The notes under the pieces were generated by a model, which was not told where the DNA came from, made no database searches, and saw only the letters and a list, made by a program, of their open reading frames with translations. The position numbers and the translations under genes were made by a program. From the NCBI GenBank assembly GCA_016490735.1, contig JAEMWC010000005.1:422501-486500 (forward strand): a stretch of 64,000 nt of DNA, written 5' to 3'. Shown here in pieces: positions 25,339 to 49,030 of the stretch (the stretch's first letter is position 1; every line of letters begins with the position of its first letter). Origin of the DNA: Pachyseris speciosa (Eukaryota > Cnidaria > Anthozoa > Scleractinia > Pachyseridae).

Positions 25339-26028
25339 CCCGGTATAGTCAATCGAACGTTCGGAAATCGAACTCAATCGAACTATATCGAACCCAATCC
25401 GTGGATAGTTCGGCAATCGAACGAAATCGAACACCGAACTTTGTGTGAGTTCGATTTCCGAACCAATCGAACTCAATCGAACAAATCGAACTTAATTCAT
25501 TAGATTGTGTTAGATTGAGTTCGGCAACCGAACTCAATCGAGCACAATCTAATGGATTGCGTTCGATTGTGTTTGGTGAATAAATTTGCTTGAACAAAGG
25601 TCATAGGTTATATGGTCTGACCGCCCGCTAGGTTACCGTACGCAAGCTCTCGTAAACTTTTTTATCAAAGCCCGTCCAAAACAAGGTTTTCGCGCCCTTT
25701 TTTACTGACTATTCCACGACATTAAAAAGAGCAGATTTGAACGGATCTTTGTTTTCAGGCCTTCAATAACGGGATTTCTGCACGTTACGACACTGAAGTA
25801 ACTCAAGCCTCCAAAAACTTGTTATTGATTTTGAACACCAGTGTTACAACAATCAAGATTTCGGAAATCGAACGTTCGCTTGAGTTCGAGCTAGTTCGAT
25901 TCCCATTTTGTGTGTGTGTGTGAGTTCGATTTCGTTCGATTGCCGAACTCAGTCGAACTCAATCCATGGATTGAGTGATTTAGTTCAATTGAAATTCAAT
26001 TCGATTGGGTTCGATTGACTCTACCGGG
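25339..26028. mobile_element. foldback element built of TCGAAC repeats, 690 bp
   Basis: Ends CCCGGTATAGTCAATCGAAC and GTTCGATTGACTCTACCGGG are near-perfect inverses, flanked by the direct repeat AATAAT (25333-25338 and 26029-26034). The arms are filled with short TCGAAC / TTCGAT repeats in both orientations. No coding content. The matching place in unit 1 (about 17425) lacks it. Confidence 0.8.
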
Positions 26029-40637: not shown

Positions 40638-40706
40638 TTAGCCGGGGGTTTAAAAAAACATATTTCGTAGTAAGTTAAAAAATTGCTAAGCAATTTTGAA
40701 ATAAGC

Positions 40707-40972
40707 CAGGGCGTACCCAATCGATGAAATCGATGATCGATGACAATCGATGACAATCGATGACAATCGATGCCAATTAATCGATTGATATTGATAATCG
40801 ATGAACAATCGATCGTCCAGGTTTGTGTGATTATCGATTGTCATCGATTATCAATATCAATCGATCAATTGGCATCGATTGTTATTGATTATCAATATCA
40901 ATCGATTAATTGGCATCGATTGTCATCGATTGTCAATATCAATCGATTAATTGGCATCGATTCTTTAACAAT
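40707..40972. repeat. left end with ATCGAT array (18 sites)
   Basis: Eighteen ATCGAT hexamers occur between 40719 and 40972, first as GACAATCGAT direct repeats, later as a longer period built on TCAATATCAATCGATTAATT and GGCATCGATT. The outer 22 bp mirror the right end. Confidence 0.93.
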
Positions 40973-41004
40973 TTTCATCTATTGGTTATTATTGTTATTT
41001 TCAG

Positions 41005-41122
41005 TGATGATTTCCAAAGGCAGAGTCTCTTGATGCATTTTAATGACGAAAACAATGACATCATTGGCAGAAGATCGAGGTTTTTGTACAACTTGACAGA
41101 TAATCAGCTTAATTCTGCTTAA
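41005..41122 (+). other. possible terminal exon near the left end
   Basis: A good acceptor-like site (TTATTGTTATTTTCAG, to 41004) is followed by 39 open codons (after a leading base: DDFQRQSLLMHFNDENND...) ending TAA at 41120-41122. An AATAAA at 41135-41140 follows. No upstream exon is visible inside the element, so it may be a remnant, chance, or a host-gene trap. Confidence 0.25.
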
Positions 41123-41323
41123 CTCTGTTAACTGAATAAAGTTGTATAGCTGTATAGCATACACATGCGTCTTGTCTTTTCGCATTTCCCGTCCTTTCCT
41201 CTGGTTTGTGCTCGATGAAAGTTACAACAATCTGATTTTATTAAAAAAAAAAACAAAAAACAATAAACTTGAACTTTGAAACCCAAACATCTAGAACATA
41301 ACGTGAAAACACTTACAGTTTAC

Positions 41324-41603
41324 TTACAGAGGCGATTTTTGATGTAATTGTTGTCGCGATTTCGGTTGCGACTTTTGGTCATTGTTGTCTCGCTCGCGCT
41401 GCAACTCAAATTCTACCTGTTATCACAAGGCGTTGTGACCTTACGACGAAAACGACATCATCCTTTTTTGTAAGACGTGTTTACGTATTTACCACGTTTC
41501 GTAGACATTCTAGCTAGTGATCAAAATCGCAACTCGTTGCAGCACTATCACGAGAAAATACGCAGTGGAAATCGTGGAAATTGCACCAAAATCGCCTGTG
41601 TAA
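41324..41603. mobile_element. MITE nested in the large transposon
   Basis: TTACAGAGGCGATTTT at the left and AAAATCGCCTGTGTAA at the right. Non-coding interior. It lies downstream of the transposase stop codon. Confidence 0.75.
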
Positions 41604-41743
41604 ACGGGCCGTATTAATTTTGAACGGGGTGGCCAAAAGTGTCAACTGTTTGCAACTTTGAAGTCCAGTTTACAGGAATTCACTTTCAAACTATAACGAT
41701 GTTAATAGTTTTATACCGCTTTCAAAAAAGTACCTCGCACCAA

Positions 41744-44700
41744 TCAGTGGCACATTAGTAGCCCGGCCTCGGCATAAACAGTAGAACCCATGTCTATTAG
41801 ACTGTAACTGTCGCCACAAAAGCGGTTTACATTTACTTGCGCAAACATAAAACAGGTCAACAACAACAGCAGCAGTGCAAGGAGTACGGAAAACAGACAA
41901 GTTAGTTCCTCGAAAATAAGTGTTGCTTGAATTGACATCAGTGTGTTAATGACGTGAAGGTAAATCGCGTTTGCCATGTACGCATTGATCAGATCAATCA
42001 TAAACAGTAAAAGCAGTAACAGGTGGATCACTCTTTCTTTTTTTTCATCAAAATAATAGATAAACTTTGAAGGCTGTACAATTTTACGTGCATGACAAAA
42101 CCGCGAAGAAGTGGAAGAAGAAGAGCAGGTACTCGCTTTTGCAGTGAGAGACTCGGCAGAAGTGTCCAAACTGTGGCTTGTAGTGCTTTCGTGACCAGTA
42201 GCAACTGTGCTTGTAGCGGAGGCTGTACATGTCATATTGTTTGCTTTTTCCCTTGCCGCTATAACTTTCTCGATCAGGACCGTTTTTTTCCAACTTTTTT
42301 TGTACGGCTCGCCCATTTCGTCCAAAATTTCGCGCAATAACGTAATGGTCATATCATTCGGGTTGCCTTGTTTTATTTTTTCTCTTTCATCCTTTCGTTG
42401 CAAATCCTCTTTTTTCTTCCTCTCTTCGTCCATTTTCTGCAGTCGTGGCAATTCCTTTAAAATATCCGTCAAATAAACGTATATCGGCCATTTAGGCTGT
42501 GAACCACTAACCTTTCCCACTACTTTGAGGATGGTATGAACTTCAGACCAACGATAGGTGGGAGTAGTTTCCAACTCCCACCCAAGAGAGTCTTTTTTCT
42601 CATAGTTTAACACCCTAAAGCAAATGGTAACTTTTTCTCTTTTTTTGGAATCTGATCGCCATTCAAAAACTGGAAAGTTTGATTTTAGAGACGGTGATCT
42701 TACAATCCTGACAATATGGGCAACTTGTAATCCTTCCGATGGAATCCACAATGCAACGATGTCGTTGATGTAAGTACCAGTTTCGACGCGTTGAGGGTTC
42801 ATGAGATTTTCGATTTTTTCATAAAAATCGTTTCTCGCCGACTCCATCCATCGTGCAAGTCGTGATGTGGCAGGACGGTATACTTTACCTTCCTGCAATG
42901 ACAGAAATTCTGCCATATGGTAATGTTGCCCTTCATGCTCTACATAATTTGGACGAATAGAGTAATCGGTTTGACGTTCTGCGCTTTTGGTTTTTTGGTC
43001 AACCCGAAGGCGTTTTGGCAGGGGCTCGAGAATAACGTTTTCGTCCACCAGTGAATGCTTGTCTGACTCTAAAGCTACCAATTTGTCACGAAAATGTTCC
43101 CTGATGTTGGTATGTTTGGGGCAGATAAGTGTATACTCGTCTCTTTCCTTGTCTGTTGCGAATTGCAGAGAGAGACACTGTTCGTGATACCAATCTTTGC
43201 AAGTAGGATAACTGCATCCCACCCAGTGAGTGTTTTTGGGAGGGATAAACGATTTATCTAGGTACTTGCACTTCCTTTCATTATAGAATGAACAATGTGT
43301 AGGACTGTCTTCATCGTCATCTTTGTCTTCCTCATCCTGATCAGTGTCTAAAGAGGCTGTCGCGGCCAAATCTACCAACGCACTAAAATGATTGCTTCCA
43401 TGATCTTCAATGGCAGTTAAAAGCACCTCATTGTCTAAATCAAATAGATCCTCACTAGATATTACCTCATTCTCATCAGGTGCGTCCCATACGGCAAACG
43501 TTCCAAACTCGGGAGTATTTATATTGATAATGTCATCGCCCTCTAATTTAAGGATGTTTCCTTTGACTAAAGCTGGCAACATACCTATAAGCTCTAACGT
43601 CTTCAGAACTTCTTTCTCTGCCATTATCATGCCCGCCTTAAGTTCATCGTCGATGTTTTGTGGCCATTGCGGCAGTTGCATGTCTTGAGCCTCTTTTTCT
43701 ACTCCCAATTTCAGTTCTTCTAATTTTTGCACTCTTCCTGAGAAATCTATCATGTCTAGCAAGGATAAATTAGGCTTCCCTCGACAGAAACATCGCAACT
43801 TTCCAAATAATTCCTCGCACTTTTGCGAACCGAATGTCCAAGGATGAAACACATGATTCGGAAAATACACCGAAAACATCTTCATTGATAGAATGAGGCT
43901 ATGTCCCGCCAGAATTGTATCATCAAACGTTTGCTGTGAAATAAAGTTTTGATGAGCATCGTATCCTTCAATTTTTAACCAGGCTCGCCAATATCGAAGG
44001 AATGTCACAGGTGCCCAGGCAAGCTTTGCGCGTTGTTGCACAGTCAATTCCCTCTCCGTATACGCCTCTAGCAAATACTGCCCCATTTGCAAGTATGCTC
44101 TTGTCGCAAGAGTTTCCTTATCACTCCACTCTTTCATACAAACCCTGACTTCTTTCCGTAAAATTCTCATGGCCGCATTGACGTTCTGCTTGTCTTTCAC
44201 GAAAACGTCACTTTTCCATAGACCCGATCTTATTCTGTCCTTTTCAAGCACCTTTATTATATGTTCTATTTGAGCGGTACCTTCGCCAATAATGAGAATG
44301 CGTTTAACGTTCAGTAGTTGGTTGCGCCATTTTTTTATTAGATGTCGCCAATCTGGGAACATGAGGGTTGGTACGAAAGTATCAATATCCATGTTCTGAT
44401 AGTCTTCAACTACAACGTTGAACTCAAAGGAGTTATAATGAAGACTGACGATATCGTTTCTGTCCTCTTCCCGTTTTTTGAAGCGATCGACATAATATTT
44501 ACGGACTTTGGAATCACCATCCGCTCCTAATCCAACTACTTTCATACCGTTACGGTATCCCCACAAAGCGACTTGATTGAACCAGTGGTTCACAAGGGCG
44601 TGGTCTTGACCCTTATAAACAGGGCTGATAGCCAAAACAAACGACGGTACGTGATCTTGCAGTGGTGCCAGCAAAAATGCATTAGCTTGTTTAGCCCTTT

Positions 44701-46051
44701 CGTTACTTTCAGCCTTCACTACATCTATAATGTCTTGAGCGGTAGTGAGGACACACTCACTTTCTGTTGCCAAACCTATCAGCTTATTACCTTTAACGCG
44801 CAGGGTGGGAATGACCGCAGTTGCGTCGATCGCCAGCTGGAAAACGCCATTATAGCCAATTTTCTTGTAAAATGATGCGGCTAGTTTCATGGCGTTTTCC
44901 TCTAACTTAATAGGAATGGCATAGTTACACCTTGCTGTGCGGTACATCGTGTTTAAACTGGGACCACCAATTTTATCCTTAACGATTTTGGCCAACGCTG
45001 GACCTCCATAGTCAAGAATGGTTGCAAAGAGGGATTTCGTCTCATCGCTCCATCGCTTAACTGGCGTGCCTCGATTGTGAATCAAGTTCTTAAGTAAGGA
45101 AGCCAATACTAAACAGTCTTTATCAGGATTTTCCATCATAGCAGCAATTTTAATAGCTATGTCAGGAACAGCACGATTAATATTGTTTTGTTCCGTTAGT
45201 GCCTTAAGTTCTTCAAGCGCAATTTCTTTATCTCTTAACTGTGTCTGCATATCTCGTACTTTTGCGCGATACATATCAAGAAGTGCGGAATACTCAACCA
45301 TGTCTTGCAACAGACATTGTACAGCTTTTGATCCCGTTGCCTCCCTTGATGATATTTGTGACATTTCGAGAACGATCTTGACTTGTCGTAAAGCTTTTTC
45401 TTCGAACTTTTCTACCTCTGTACTTAAAGTAGTTAGAATTTCGGGACCAATAGTTGCCGCGGTTCTGACGGATGCTAGAGTAGACGACAAAATTACTTTT
45501 TGTACACTTCTTGCCATGGCCAATTGTTCCCGTTGGAATTTGTCAACATTATCCCTCACTATTTCCTCTACAGAAATGTCCGAAGTAGTTTTATCAGGTT
45601 TGGGTTGCGTTGTTGTAGATGTACTGGACTTTGCAATGGACCTTCCGAGTCTTGTTCCAAGTTCTTTTTCAATTTGAACTTTTGTCCTTGACTCGATCTA
45701 AAAGTTAAAATTATCAGATCAAAATAAGGTGGGCGAAATTACGAGCTGTGCTGTTGGGTACTGAGAAGACTGGAGAAGAGTAGTACTGTATAACATTACT
45801 ACTGACCCAATGGAGGTCATTATTAAAACTAAGAAATACTGAGTTAAACTGTTCTTAATGAACGAATAATTCACTGTATAATAACAATAATAAACAGGTA
45901 TTGAACTAACCTTGTCAATATTGTCGCTTGCCAACAGTGATGATACTAAGGTCCTCTCTTGGTCTGGTCTTGTTGTTGGTAAGACATGTACTCCTGATGA
46001 GGAAGACTTTGAAGAGGTTCCTTTGCTCGTTTTGGAAAAAAAGTCTGTCAT
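41744..46051 (-). CDS. DDE/RNase H-like transposase with PHD-like finger and SAP-like motif, 1364 aa
   Basis: Two minus-strand exons, 46051-45911 (47 codons) and 45697-41744, joined by a phase-0 intron (AAG/GTTAGT...TTTTAG/ATC). The start is the ATG at 46051 (MTDFFSKTSKG); the frame is open further upstream, so the real start may be earlier. The N-terminus is Ser-rich, then helical. The central region shows candidate catalytic acidic residues: D near 339 (QLAIDATAVIP), D near 441 (GLGADGDSK), HLIKKWRN near 499 and SQKCEELFGKLR near 676. The last two recall P-element/THAP9-type transposases. An acidic stretch precedes a PHD-like Cys/His finger (about 848-911, GCSYPTC, DWYHEQC, ICPKH). A SAP-like helix pair (MTITLLREILDEMG) lies near 1162-1198. 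The last 90 residues are strongly hydrophobic, odd for a nuclear protein; they may be read-through of 3' sequence. Lies inside the TIR transposon and probably mobilises it. Confidence 0.85.
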
Positions 46052-46567
46052 ATCTCTGCATCCTGTTGAGAACAATAATTTGATCAACTGGATCAAGTAT
46101 TTTTCTGCTCAACTTCCCCGCAGGCAAATCAAAGCAGCTGATGAAAGTCACGACGTGTTCAGAATCAGCAAGGTTGTTATCCCTGTGACTCACTTACTCA
46201 CTCACTCGACTGGCCATTTGAACCCGGGAGAGGGGGGGGGGAAACGGGCATTTGAAACCCTTAACACCAAACACTTTAAAAACGATTGTAAACCCTTGAA
46301 AGCCCTTGTAAACACTTTCAAAACCCTTTTCGTTTAGTCTGTCTGTCTGTATGCCTGTCATGCAGTGTCATGTCATGCTTCACCGCGGATGCGTTTTAAT
46401 TCATTGTTTTCGCAGGAAACGCTCAGGAAACACGTGGTGTTGGATGCCGTCAGCTGTTCTTTCAGGTTCTTTCCAGTTCGTCAGATTTCATCAGTCGAGC
46501 GGTCAAAACAAATTCGGTATTCTGCGAACGTATTTCTGTTTTACTGCTGTTTTGTGTCAAGGTCATT
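46052..46567. promoter_or_regulatory. divergent region between the transposase and CUT genes
   Basis: The two start codons are 516 bp apart and point away from each other. The stretch holds a G-run (about 46230-46240) and an acceptor-like CTCAACAG on the minus strand (before 46066) that could join an upstream transposase exon. No TATA box identified. Confidence 0.45.
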
Positions 46568-48336
46568 ATGGCTAATAATACAGTCACTGTGAATAATAAC
46601 GAAATCGTTCAAGTTGAAGCAAGCGAAGAATCTGCTAAGCTGAAGGTCAGTCTGGTACTCGCAATCAATCATTGAACTGAACTGATTCATCAGATTCATT
46701 CATGGCGAAACCGGCAAAAACTTATTAATAACCGTCACGTTTTTTGCAGATCACTGTGGAAATACCGGCCTCGGAAAAGGAGAAAGTGCTCCAATTTGTA
46801 GAAGGATGTGGCGGCAAGGTTTTCGATGGTAAGTTCACTCAGGTTATAAAGTCCAACAGCACTTTCAAAGCAAGCTCAAATGTGTAGCCGTTTTTCAGTT
46901 TATTAAAATCCGATCAATCACTTCATTCTTTAAATCTGTTTAAATCTAGCAGGCGAGGGAGAGGTGGCTGAAACAGAAACTCCATCTACGATCGCAAAGG
47001 CCGTAAGAGGTTTCATTCAAAAACACCCGACCATCTCAGTTGCATTTTTTGCAAAAGAAATCGTCCGACGCTCGCAGGGCACGTTATCCACGCTGTTGAA
47101 TAACCCGCCCTCTACTTTCCCATCCGGCGCTGGAAGAGAACCGTGGGAAGCCATGAAAAAGTTTTTGGCGAGTGAGGACGAACAAAAAAACCTGCTAGAA
47201 AGGAAAGGTGAGTATAGTTATTTTACTGAATTACTAAGGCGATGTTGTGACCACATCACTGCTATGTCCTGGGGTTTTTTAATAAAAACCAGAAAAAGTA
47301 AATAACCGCAAAGTAAAACGTGTGAAATAGGAAATGCCACACCCCCAAAAAAAACCCTGAAATATCCTGAATATTACACATATTAACTTCGTTACTTCTG
47401 GGTTTTTTTGCATGTGTTTTCTCTGATTTTCTCTGGTTTTCTCCACCGTCAGCGAGAAGTAAAGGTAAGGGCGAGCTGAGCCTGCAGGCTGTGCAGAGCA
47501 CAGACACAGCCCAAACCGCTCAAACAGATCCAAACAGTGGACCAAAAAAGAGGAAGACGTTTGACAAAATGGAGCTGGCAGCAATGGACACGGTATATAA
47601 AGCGTCAAAAGGGCTGCCGACAAGCTCGATGATCGAGCGTCTGACGTCGTCACTGGGCCTCGAAAAAGACCAGGTATTATGATGTTTTATAAACGTAAAA
47701 TGAGTGCTAAAATTAGTAAAATTTACCTCTCGGCTTGGATCGTTTCACATTGTTTTCATTGTCAAGTATCCAACCAGCTTTCACTTGATGAACCGCCTCC
47801 CTTGAATGCCGTTTTAGCATCCAAACAGCTTTATGGGTTTTCTGCGGATAACTTAGAGTCACTTGACAAGCATCGCATCTTAAACTGCTTTCAAAGTTGT
47901 CTGGCGAAGAAATCGAACATCCCAAACAATTAAGCTGCTTCAGGATAGTATTAAGGCTCGTGTGAGGTGCACCAAAGGTATTCAAAATCGGCAGAAAAAG
48001 GATAACCAGAAGGGAAATTCTTATTGAAGTCATGACTGAAAAATCAGCTACACCTTCCCTACACGTGGGTGAGTTGGTGTTACCCAAGTGTCTGTGCGTG
48101 CTTGCACCACGCCAGTGACTATTGTAGTTGCGGCCAGGGTCACTGTTGCGCAGAGTGTAAAAAAAAAACTGAAAAAAGTAGGATTTATGCTAATAATGGG
48201 AATAATTTCATAATAACTAAAGCATATTGGTTTTTTTCTTCTACAGGTATCCACCTGGTTTCAAAATCACCGCCGCTTGGAGAGAACCAAGGCGTATACA
48301 CCAGGGCAGTACGCGCTGGAAGTGGATACTAGTTAA
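46568..48336 (+). CDS. CUT-class homeodomain protein, 240 aa, encoded inside the transposon
   Basis: Five exons: 46568-46645, 46750-46828, 46953-47207, 47453-47673, 48247-48336 (78+79+255+221+90 = 723 bp). All have GT/AG ends; exon 3 could start 3 bp earlier. One CUT domain lies at about residues 63-135 (STIAKAVRGFIQKHP, FFAKEIVRRSQGTLSTLL, GREPWEAMKKFL). A homeodomain lies at about 168-226, whose recognition helix VSTWFQNHRRLERTK carries W48, F49, N51 and R53, with Q at position 50. A single CUT domain plus homeodomain is the ONECUT-like layout, but the protein is short, with only about 60 residues before CUT and 14 after the homeodomain. Nuclear DNA-binding protein; known CUT proteins favour ATCRAT/ATCGAT. 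AATAAA at 48385. Likely captured from a host gene, introns included. Confidence 0.92.
47713..48033 (-). CDS. antisense zinc-finger-like exon inside CUT intron 4
   Basis: A 106-codon minus-strand frame within intron 4 of the CUT gene. The interior has C-x2-C-x19-H-x5-H (RCDACQ...LKRHSREAVH), a BED/C2H2-like finger pattern, preceded by another C-x2-C (NCLGC). The frame can be left at a donor-like AGAG/GTAAAT (about 47728) in phase 1. That is the phase needed to join the CTCAACAG/GA acceptor at 46066 and run into MTDFFSK of the transposase. So it may be an upstream DNA-binding exon of the transposase, with an intron spanning most of the CUT gene. Its first 21 codons look like a signal peptide, so a secreted-peptide gene is the alternative. 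Confidence 0.45.
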   Translation of the reverse strand: MTSIRISLLVILFLPILNTFGAPHTSLNTILKQLNCLGCSISSPDNFESSLRCDACQVTLSYPQKTHKAVWMLKRHSREAVHQVKAGWILDNENNVKRSKPRGKFY

Positions 48337-48816
48337 ACCAGATTTGTAATGCAGCTGACGCTGAACTGAGAATGAACTGGAATGAATAAAGAGATAAAAT
48401 ACAAAACATGCGTAATCATTTGTGAATTTATTTTATTCATGTTTTATTGTGTTTAATTACAGTTATGTTTATGATTTAAAACTTCCAAAGCAACACATTG
48501 TTGAGCTGATTGTTGTATTTTGACTGTGTTGTACGCTAGCTGTTCTACGTCACACGCAATCTCAGCTCGGTGTAATTCTCAGAATTCTGGATAGAACTGA
48601 CTGGTATTACTGACAATTCCATGTTCTCAGCGTGTGGGCAGAGACCTGTTGGAATACTAAGAAAAATAAATTAAAAGTTTTGCATCGGATCTAGGTACGA
48701 CGCAACCATTGCGTAGTTAAAATTGACAGATGGACAAAATGGCGTACGAAATAACTTCGATTTTTGATGTGATACATTGAAGTAATCTTTTTGATTAGAG
48801 AAAATATGAAACCCCA

Positions 48817-48976
48817 ATCGATGACAATCGATGATTCATGAACACTTTTGTGTGATTATCGATTGGTCATCGATTGGCCGATACCAATCGATGCCAATTA
48901 ACTAACATACATCGATTGGCATCGATTGATCGATTGCTTTTCCGATCATCGATTTTCATCGATTGGGTACGCCCTG
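48817..48976. repeat. right end with ATCGAT array (10 sites)
   Basis: Ten ATCGAT hexamers occur between 48817 and 48966, several as ATCGATTGG or ATCGATTTTC. The outer sequence mirrors the left end. GTGTGATTATCGATTG is also shared with the left array (about 40825). Confidence 0.93.
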
Positions 48977-49030
48977 AATAAGCTTAAATGTCGTAGAAGT
49001 GAGAAAAAGGAAAACAAACCTGATAGTTTG

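Follow-up and report, generated by a model that had tools for sequence, protein, structure and literature searches.

The window analyzed here is a 64,000-bp stretch of Pachyseris speciosa DNA (contig JAEMWC010000005.1, positions 422,501 to 486,500, forward strand), and it contains a DNA transposon that encodes a CUT-homeodomain protein in addition to its transposase. A preliminary description of the window had proposed perfect inverted termini, 7-bp direct flanks, a giant transposase-like open reading frame and a five-exon CUT-homeodomain gene, and all four were borne out. The sequence CAGGGCGTACCCAATCG occurs exactly at 40707-40723 (+) and in inverted form at 48960-48976 (-) in a window search allowing up to 3 mismatches (0.03 matches expected), with the perfect repeat extending to 23 bp. 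The transposase gene (two predicted exons) lies on one strand and the CUT gene (five predicted exons) on the other, arranged head to head. The spacer between them is likely a bidirectional promoter. The element is organized as follows:

40700..40706, left target site duplication AATAAGC, exact match to the right flank
40707..48976, element body, between the two AATAAGC flanks
40707..40729, + strand, left terminal inverted repeat, 23 bp, 100% complementary to the right repeat
40720..40961, left subterminal array, 18 ATCGAT
41744..45697, - strand, transposase exon 2 (1,317 codons plus stop), open in 4/6 full-length copies
45911..46051, - strand, transposase exon 1 (predicted, 47 codons, starts MTDFFSK), GT..AG intron in 6/6 full-length copies
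46052..46567, 516-bp spacer between both start codons, no ATCGAT
46568..46645, + strand, CUT gene exon 1 (predicted)
46750..46828, + strand, CUT gene exon 2 (predicted)
46953..47207, + strand, CUT gene exon 3 (CUT domain, Pfam CUT 8.6e-11)
47453..47673, + strand, CUT gene exon 4 (homeodomain to position 44)
48247..48336, + strand, CUT gene exon 5 (homeodomain helix 3 WFQNHRR, tail YTPGQYA)
48817..48963, right subterminal array, 10 ATCGAT
48954..48976, - strand, right terminal inverted repeat, 23 bp, 100% complementary to the left repeat
48977..48983, right target site duplication AATAAGC, exact match to the left flank

All four introns of the CUT gene model have GT..AG borders, and the encoded 240 amino acids are identical (240/240) to P0023, an NCBI-predicted Montipora capricornis 'one cut domain family member 3-like' protein in which Pfam detects both CUT (PF02376, 2.7e-10) and homeodomain (PF00046, 1.3e-12). 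The single CUT domain followed by a homeodomain is the arrangement of the ONECUT subclass, and the best PDB sequence matches of the protein are ONECUT2 and HNF-6. Homeodomain position 50, which is methionine in ONECUT proteins (PMC4901127, table), is Q here. Coral genes with the 'one cut domain family member 3-like' annotation can be transposon genes. A further Montipora capricornis protein, P0034, matches the CUT upstream region and exons 1-2 in its first part and then, judged by eye, continues into GIY-YIG and Penelope-like sequence; it appears to be another, interrupted copy annotated as a host protein.

Copies in the genome and the insertion site

The genome searched comprises 984 Mb in 2,368 contigs. 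The 17-bp terminus has 24 exact matches genome-wide (reversed-pattern control, 0), which form 10 inward pairs and leave 4 singles. Of the pairs, six measure 8,250-8,270 bp and four 1,257-2,665 bp; two further short copies, of 1,499 and 1,216 bp, lie at the singles L020 and L021 and have one imperfect terminus each. The other singles, L018 and L019 (the latter adjoining a run of N), were left out of the delimited copies. A perfect 7-bp duplication flanks 12/12 delimited copies at 11 distinct sites; L012 and L013 have the same duplication and the same flanks and are probably alleles. The element is a multi-copy transposon carrying a CUT-homeobox gene, and the copies anticipated in the preliminary description, with both ends, both genes and 7-bp duplications, are present as the six full-length copies among these termini.

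Comparison of the six full-length copies revealed 99.66-99.99% identity (gaps aside), with both genes and all splice sites retained in 6/6 and both frames open in three (the window copy, L011 and L012). Such close similarity among copies that keep two open frames points to recent activity, and testing the element in a cell assay should therefore be practicable. The six short derivatives carry six different internal deletions and retain at least 360 bp of the left end, at least 228 bp of the right end and 27-29 ATCGAT, a pattern consistent with failed gap repair after cut-and-paste transposition, although these deleted copies do not demonstrate their own movement. The preliminary description named as a refutation termini without either gene combined with a CUT gene syntenic with host neighbors in related species. 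This applies only in part: termini without genes do exist, but these copies derive from the full element by internal deletion, and all CUT matches of the element's kind sit in or beside such an element.

The window copy is inserted inside another dispersed repeat. When the joined flanks (one AATAAGC, junction at query position 150) were searched, with the best 40 of 4,667 candidates scored, 38 of the 41 matches listed were other copies of that repeat, each covering query positions 35-185 or more in a single match that crosses the junction (for example, the empty site C53:615820-616016, query 1-197, 87%); the remaining three were the two own flanks and one self-match. The matched empty sites are related, not allelic.

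Diverged relatives, end arrays and the origin of the CUT gene

Transposase relatives with 31-79% identity over the matched pieces were found on at least 15 further contigs, a lower bound from the best 35 of 157 candidates scored. A whole-genome CUT-domain search (23/23 candidates scored) yielded 20 loci, 16 of which lie divergently beside a transposase of this lineage, namely the six full copies and ten relatives (C744, C202, C318, C6, C442, C44, C68, C72, C283 and C876). A seventeenth locus with the pair, C206, was found by tblastn; having missed it, the CUT-domain search is not exhaustive. The pair thereby recurs at 11 of the 15 relatives in the same head-to-head order. The CUT loci without an adjoining known transposase of this lineage are C49, C607:365847, C22:1532140 and C134:309689, and no transposase was seen in the 3 kb beside C22 and C134. 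Unlike C49, the last three are not clearly host Onecut either.

Analysis of ATCGAT in the element indicated a strict confinement to its ends: of the 28 occurrences, the leftmost 255 bp hold 18 and the rightmost 160 bp hold 10, with 0 in the 7,855 bp between. Shuffled elements contain 2.3 on average and at most 7 (300 shuffles), and the remaining 55.7 kb of the window contains 12. At either tip, 13 bp precede the first ATCGAT, which starts within the terminal repeat, and 11/26 spacings measure 9-11 bp. We infer that the element's own CUT protein binds these arrays.

The ends of relatives were sampled at both sides for C442, C744 and C72 and at one side each, with an array, for C95, C6, C1373 and C283. 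C442 (transposase identity 47%) is 7,664 bp long, with CAGGACGTTACAAATCGAT at both ends, the 7-bp duplication AAAAATC and arrays at both ends. C744 (72407-80016; L043, L052), nested between inverted copies of another repeat, has the ends CAGGGCGTA and arrays at both ends. C72:223693-231273 (L038, L056, L057) is 7,581 bp long with the ends CCCGGCGTA, and its arrays consist of AATCGAAC, with 13 in the two 180-bp ends versus 1 in 8.7 kb of other pieces read. The CUT-side end of C283 is CAGGACGTAACCAATAG with 8 ATCGAT; on its right, only a remnant and no recognizable end was seen. The ATCGA core is common to the sampled families, and the next base differs by family. The recognition stretch of the CUT protein reads RSKSHFT in C72 and C206 (L048) and RSQG or RPQG in the others read; its coincidence with AATCGAAC is a single co-change, suggestive of possible co-evolution between protein and site.

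Judged by its CUT exon, C49 is most likely the host Onecut gene. This exon has its predicted phase-1 donor immediately past the CUT domain, and exon 3 of the element ends at the same place within about one residue. The homeodomain coding sequence is split near position 44/45 in this element and in C283, C744, C6 and C72 (C442 unclear), and the tail Y.PGQ, in full Y.PGQ[YFL][AS], is common to all six. Together with the divergence, the intron positions and shared tail suggest that an Onecut-type gene was captured once, long ago, in the form of DNA. Medusozoans are reported to lack CUT-class genes, whereas Nematostella and Acropora are reported to have a single Onecut each (PMC7642931). In Clytia, the transposase homologues P0018 and P0020 have, by eye, an N-terminal cysteine- and histidine-containing stretch instead, and the two observations would fit CUT acquisition within anthozoans. 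The capture looks ancient and common to a lineage, not recent; the proposal that the CUT gene was captured with its introns and serves the element gains strong support from the recurring pair, the predicted host-like phase-1 intron and the end arrays.

The transposase

The two exons together encode a predicted transposase of 1,364 amino acids, in which the following parts were distinguished (residues of exon 2):

43328..45130, - strand, piece modelled as the catalytic core (residues 190-790), with D291, D393/D395, D449xxH452 and E628
43112..43270, - strand, PHD finger (residues 810-862), Pfam PHD_NSD 8.9e-6, above cut-off
42458..42790, - strand, BAH-like beta domain (residues 970-1080), tentative
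42248..42364, - strand, HeH/LEM-like stretch (residues 1112-1150), Pfam PF12949 in 12/23 family members (E ≤ 0.5, lowest 1.1e-6)
41843..42031, - strand, two hydrophobic, possibly membrane-spanning segments (residues 1223-1241 and 1267-1285)

The core is predicted by modelling to fold like the P-element enzyme, with a P-type RNase H-like catalytic domain. The acidic residues and histidine listed are invariant in 23 aligned sequences, the catalytic three being assigned by eye, and they give the DDE order with DxxH between the second D and E that marks the P superfamily. The target duplications of 7 or 8 bp typical of that superfamily are also found, in 12/12 delimited copies and in C442. P-superfamily transposases carry a THAP DNA-binding domain (PMC4168063); Pfam detected no THAP in exon 1 or exon 2, and the first 235 amino acids contain one Cys. 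Across the six frames, the only loose match to C2CH spacing lies at 46390-46566 on the opposite strand, ahead of the CUT start codon, in a frame with no Pfam match. Since THAP was not found, we call the element P-like and do not file it as a P element.

Beyond the core, the PHD-finger profile PF00628 matches 18/23 family members (E ≤ 0.5, lowest 4.8e-6), and Pfam did not match PF12949 in the window's own transposase. Two to three C-terminal hydrophobic segments are also present in 10/22 homologues (P0001, P0003-P0008, P0012, P0014 and P0015), and are lacking in the Clytia homologues P0018 and P0020; the shuffle control for these segments is weak. An HeH/LEM-like stretch followed by hydrophobic segments, an arrangement found in ten of the homologues, is an order resembling inner-nuclear-membrane LEM proteins. 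A membrane-anchored transposase would be odd. The M[TS]xFF start (window 46031-46051, - strand) is shared by P0011, P0014 and P0017, and MTDFFSK resembles a PCNA-binding motif minus its glutamine.

Probable mode of transposition and relation to known systems

Taking the two genes and the end arrays together, we consider it probable that the element moves by cut-and-paste, with the P-like transposase performing the chemistry and the element's own CUT protein recognizing the ends through the ATCGAT arrays. The Onecut-type gene would have been captured in an ancestor of the lineage as DNA that still contained the introns. Through its CUT domain and homeodomain the protein would bind the ATCGA core, coat both ends and gather them, and it would recruit or synapse the transposase, which has no THAP that could be found. 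Cleavage beside CAGGG with staggered joining would then produce the 7-bp duplication, and failed gap repair after excision would leave internally deleted copies. In a more tentative extension, which we hold to be possible and somewhat less than evenly likely, the captured Onecut-type regulator replaced THAP, the CUT protein and the ATCGA arrays co-evolved in many families of the lineage, and the transposase acquired PHD and BAH-like chromatin readers as well as HeH/LEM and membrane parts, which would anchor transposition at the nuclear envelope.

Several observations weigh against end recognition by a captured CUT protein in a P-like element. The transposase frame is broken in 2/6 full-length copies (L009 and L013) and the CUT frame in 1/6 (L010). 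No P-element family was found in Pfam for the window transposase at E up to 1, among 25 of the 32 Pfam families listed for the transposase alignment, or among the PDB sequence matches with E of 10 or less. Four of the 15 relatives (C384, C1373, C500 and C95) showed no CUT gene, their transposase matches being partial or decayed, and the 11 that have the pair count as loci and not as independent families: the CUT stretches of C744/C202 and C72/C206 are near-identical, and haplotype duplicates are possible among them. C744 has no target duplication; the C72 ends carry no ATCGAT and its flanks share 6 bp, not 7; and the left end and array of C6 were not found in the 4.5 kb read. The CUT domains of the element and C49 share only 21/62 alignment columns. 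The ATCGAT preference assumed for the element's protein is carried over from host-type CUT proteins, and the short derivatives may have arisen in place, so they are no proof of a need for the arrays.

CUT proteins are transcription factors, and the element's own could regulate transcription through the terminal arrays as enhancers or silencers, leaving the transposase to find the ends alone through the 23-bp termini. The arrays lie within ~0.8 kb of the 3' ends of both genes and could act at a distance, and most of the 23-bp terminus falls beyond the array and might serve as a site for the transposase. We nevertheless regard this explanation as unlikely, since the 516-bp divergent spacer, where regulator sites are expected, contains no ATCGAT, the first ATCGAT starts within the terminal repeat, and the transposase has no recognized P-type DNA-binding domain. 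The empty spacer favors end recognition over a promoter role and still allows for regulation. Considerably less probable is that the CUT protein masks the ends from silencing or steers the element to the germ line, with the transposase or the host Onecut binding the arrays. C49 is a separate, likely host, gene of a class that prefers ATCGAT (PMC4077741), which the arrays might exploit, but a lineage that keeps its own CUT gene while its transposases diverge to 31-52% identity would have no need of the host's, and the array shifts to AATCGAAC in the one sampled family with an altered recognition stretch, albeit as a single event. Although gene capture by DNA transposons is common, a host CUT gene trapped by chance between two ends and without a role is scarcely credible, given that six copies and 11 diverged relatives keep the pair in the same order and that the likely host Onecut is located elsewhere.

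The element differs from the P superfamily (Drosophila P element, Galileo) in the THAP domain not found here, the extra PHD, HeH/LEM-like and hydrophobic C-terminal parts, the second gene, which encodes the CUT-homeodomain protein, and the subterminal ATCGA arrays. Two-protein DNA transposons are known, such as Harbinger with a Myb-like protein and En/Spm with TnpA, and En/Spm also has subterminal motif arrays bound by its accessory protein. These systems likewise encode an accessory DNA-binding protein beside the transposase; their transposases are unrelated to this one, and the accessory protein here belongs to a developmental-regulator class. ONECUT genes share with the element one CUT domain plus homeodomain and, as in C49, the predicted phase-1 intron after the CUT domain, and differ in homeodomain position 50 (Q here and in C72 and C283, N in C442, C744 and C6), in the tail, and in the CUT domain columns given above. 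Dada elements have 6-7-bp duplications and DxxH (PMC8869645), both also seen here; many Dada families insert into transfer RNA or small nuclear RNA genes, and this copy lies in another dispersed repeat. Rfam found 0 RNA genes in the window, in which the target is split by the element; the site was not rejoined for this test. Some Ginger1 elements have a PHD finger, combined with an integrase-type transposase and Ulp1 or OTU domains, and the portion of the source available names no homeobox gene (PMC2836005).

Among the titles and abstract openings listed in searches of the open-licence PMC literature, none describes a transposon with a CUT-homeobox gene. CUT-homeobox genes are known as animal developmental regulators, and the one here appears to be a long-term transposon part, occurring together with the DNA motif bound by its class. 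The element offers a testable example of how a transposon can exchange the module with which it recognizes DNA for a transcription factor of its host, and of how such a protein diverges together with the array of sites that it binds (ATCGAT versus AATCGAAC).

Elsewhere in the window, transporter-like open reading frames, monocarboxylate-transporter-like by eye, repeat at ~4.0-7.1, 20.8-23.8, 35.7-38.3, 49.6-52.1 and 62.6-63.0 kb, so that the element sits within a tandem array of transporter-like genes. Reverse-transcriptase and integrase-like frames at ~0.2-3.5 and 11.4-14.1 kb are, by eye, retrotransposon remains. A short stretch from 25339 to ~26070, for which no right end was found, starts with CCCGGTATAGTCAATCGAACG and contains 15 AATCGAAC in two clusters (25351-25568 and 25866-26016); it is probably a gene-less relative of the C72 family.

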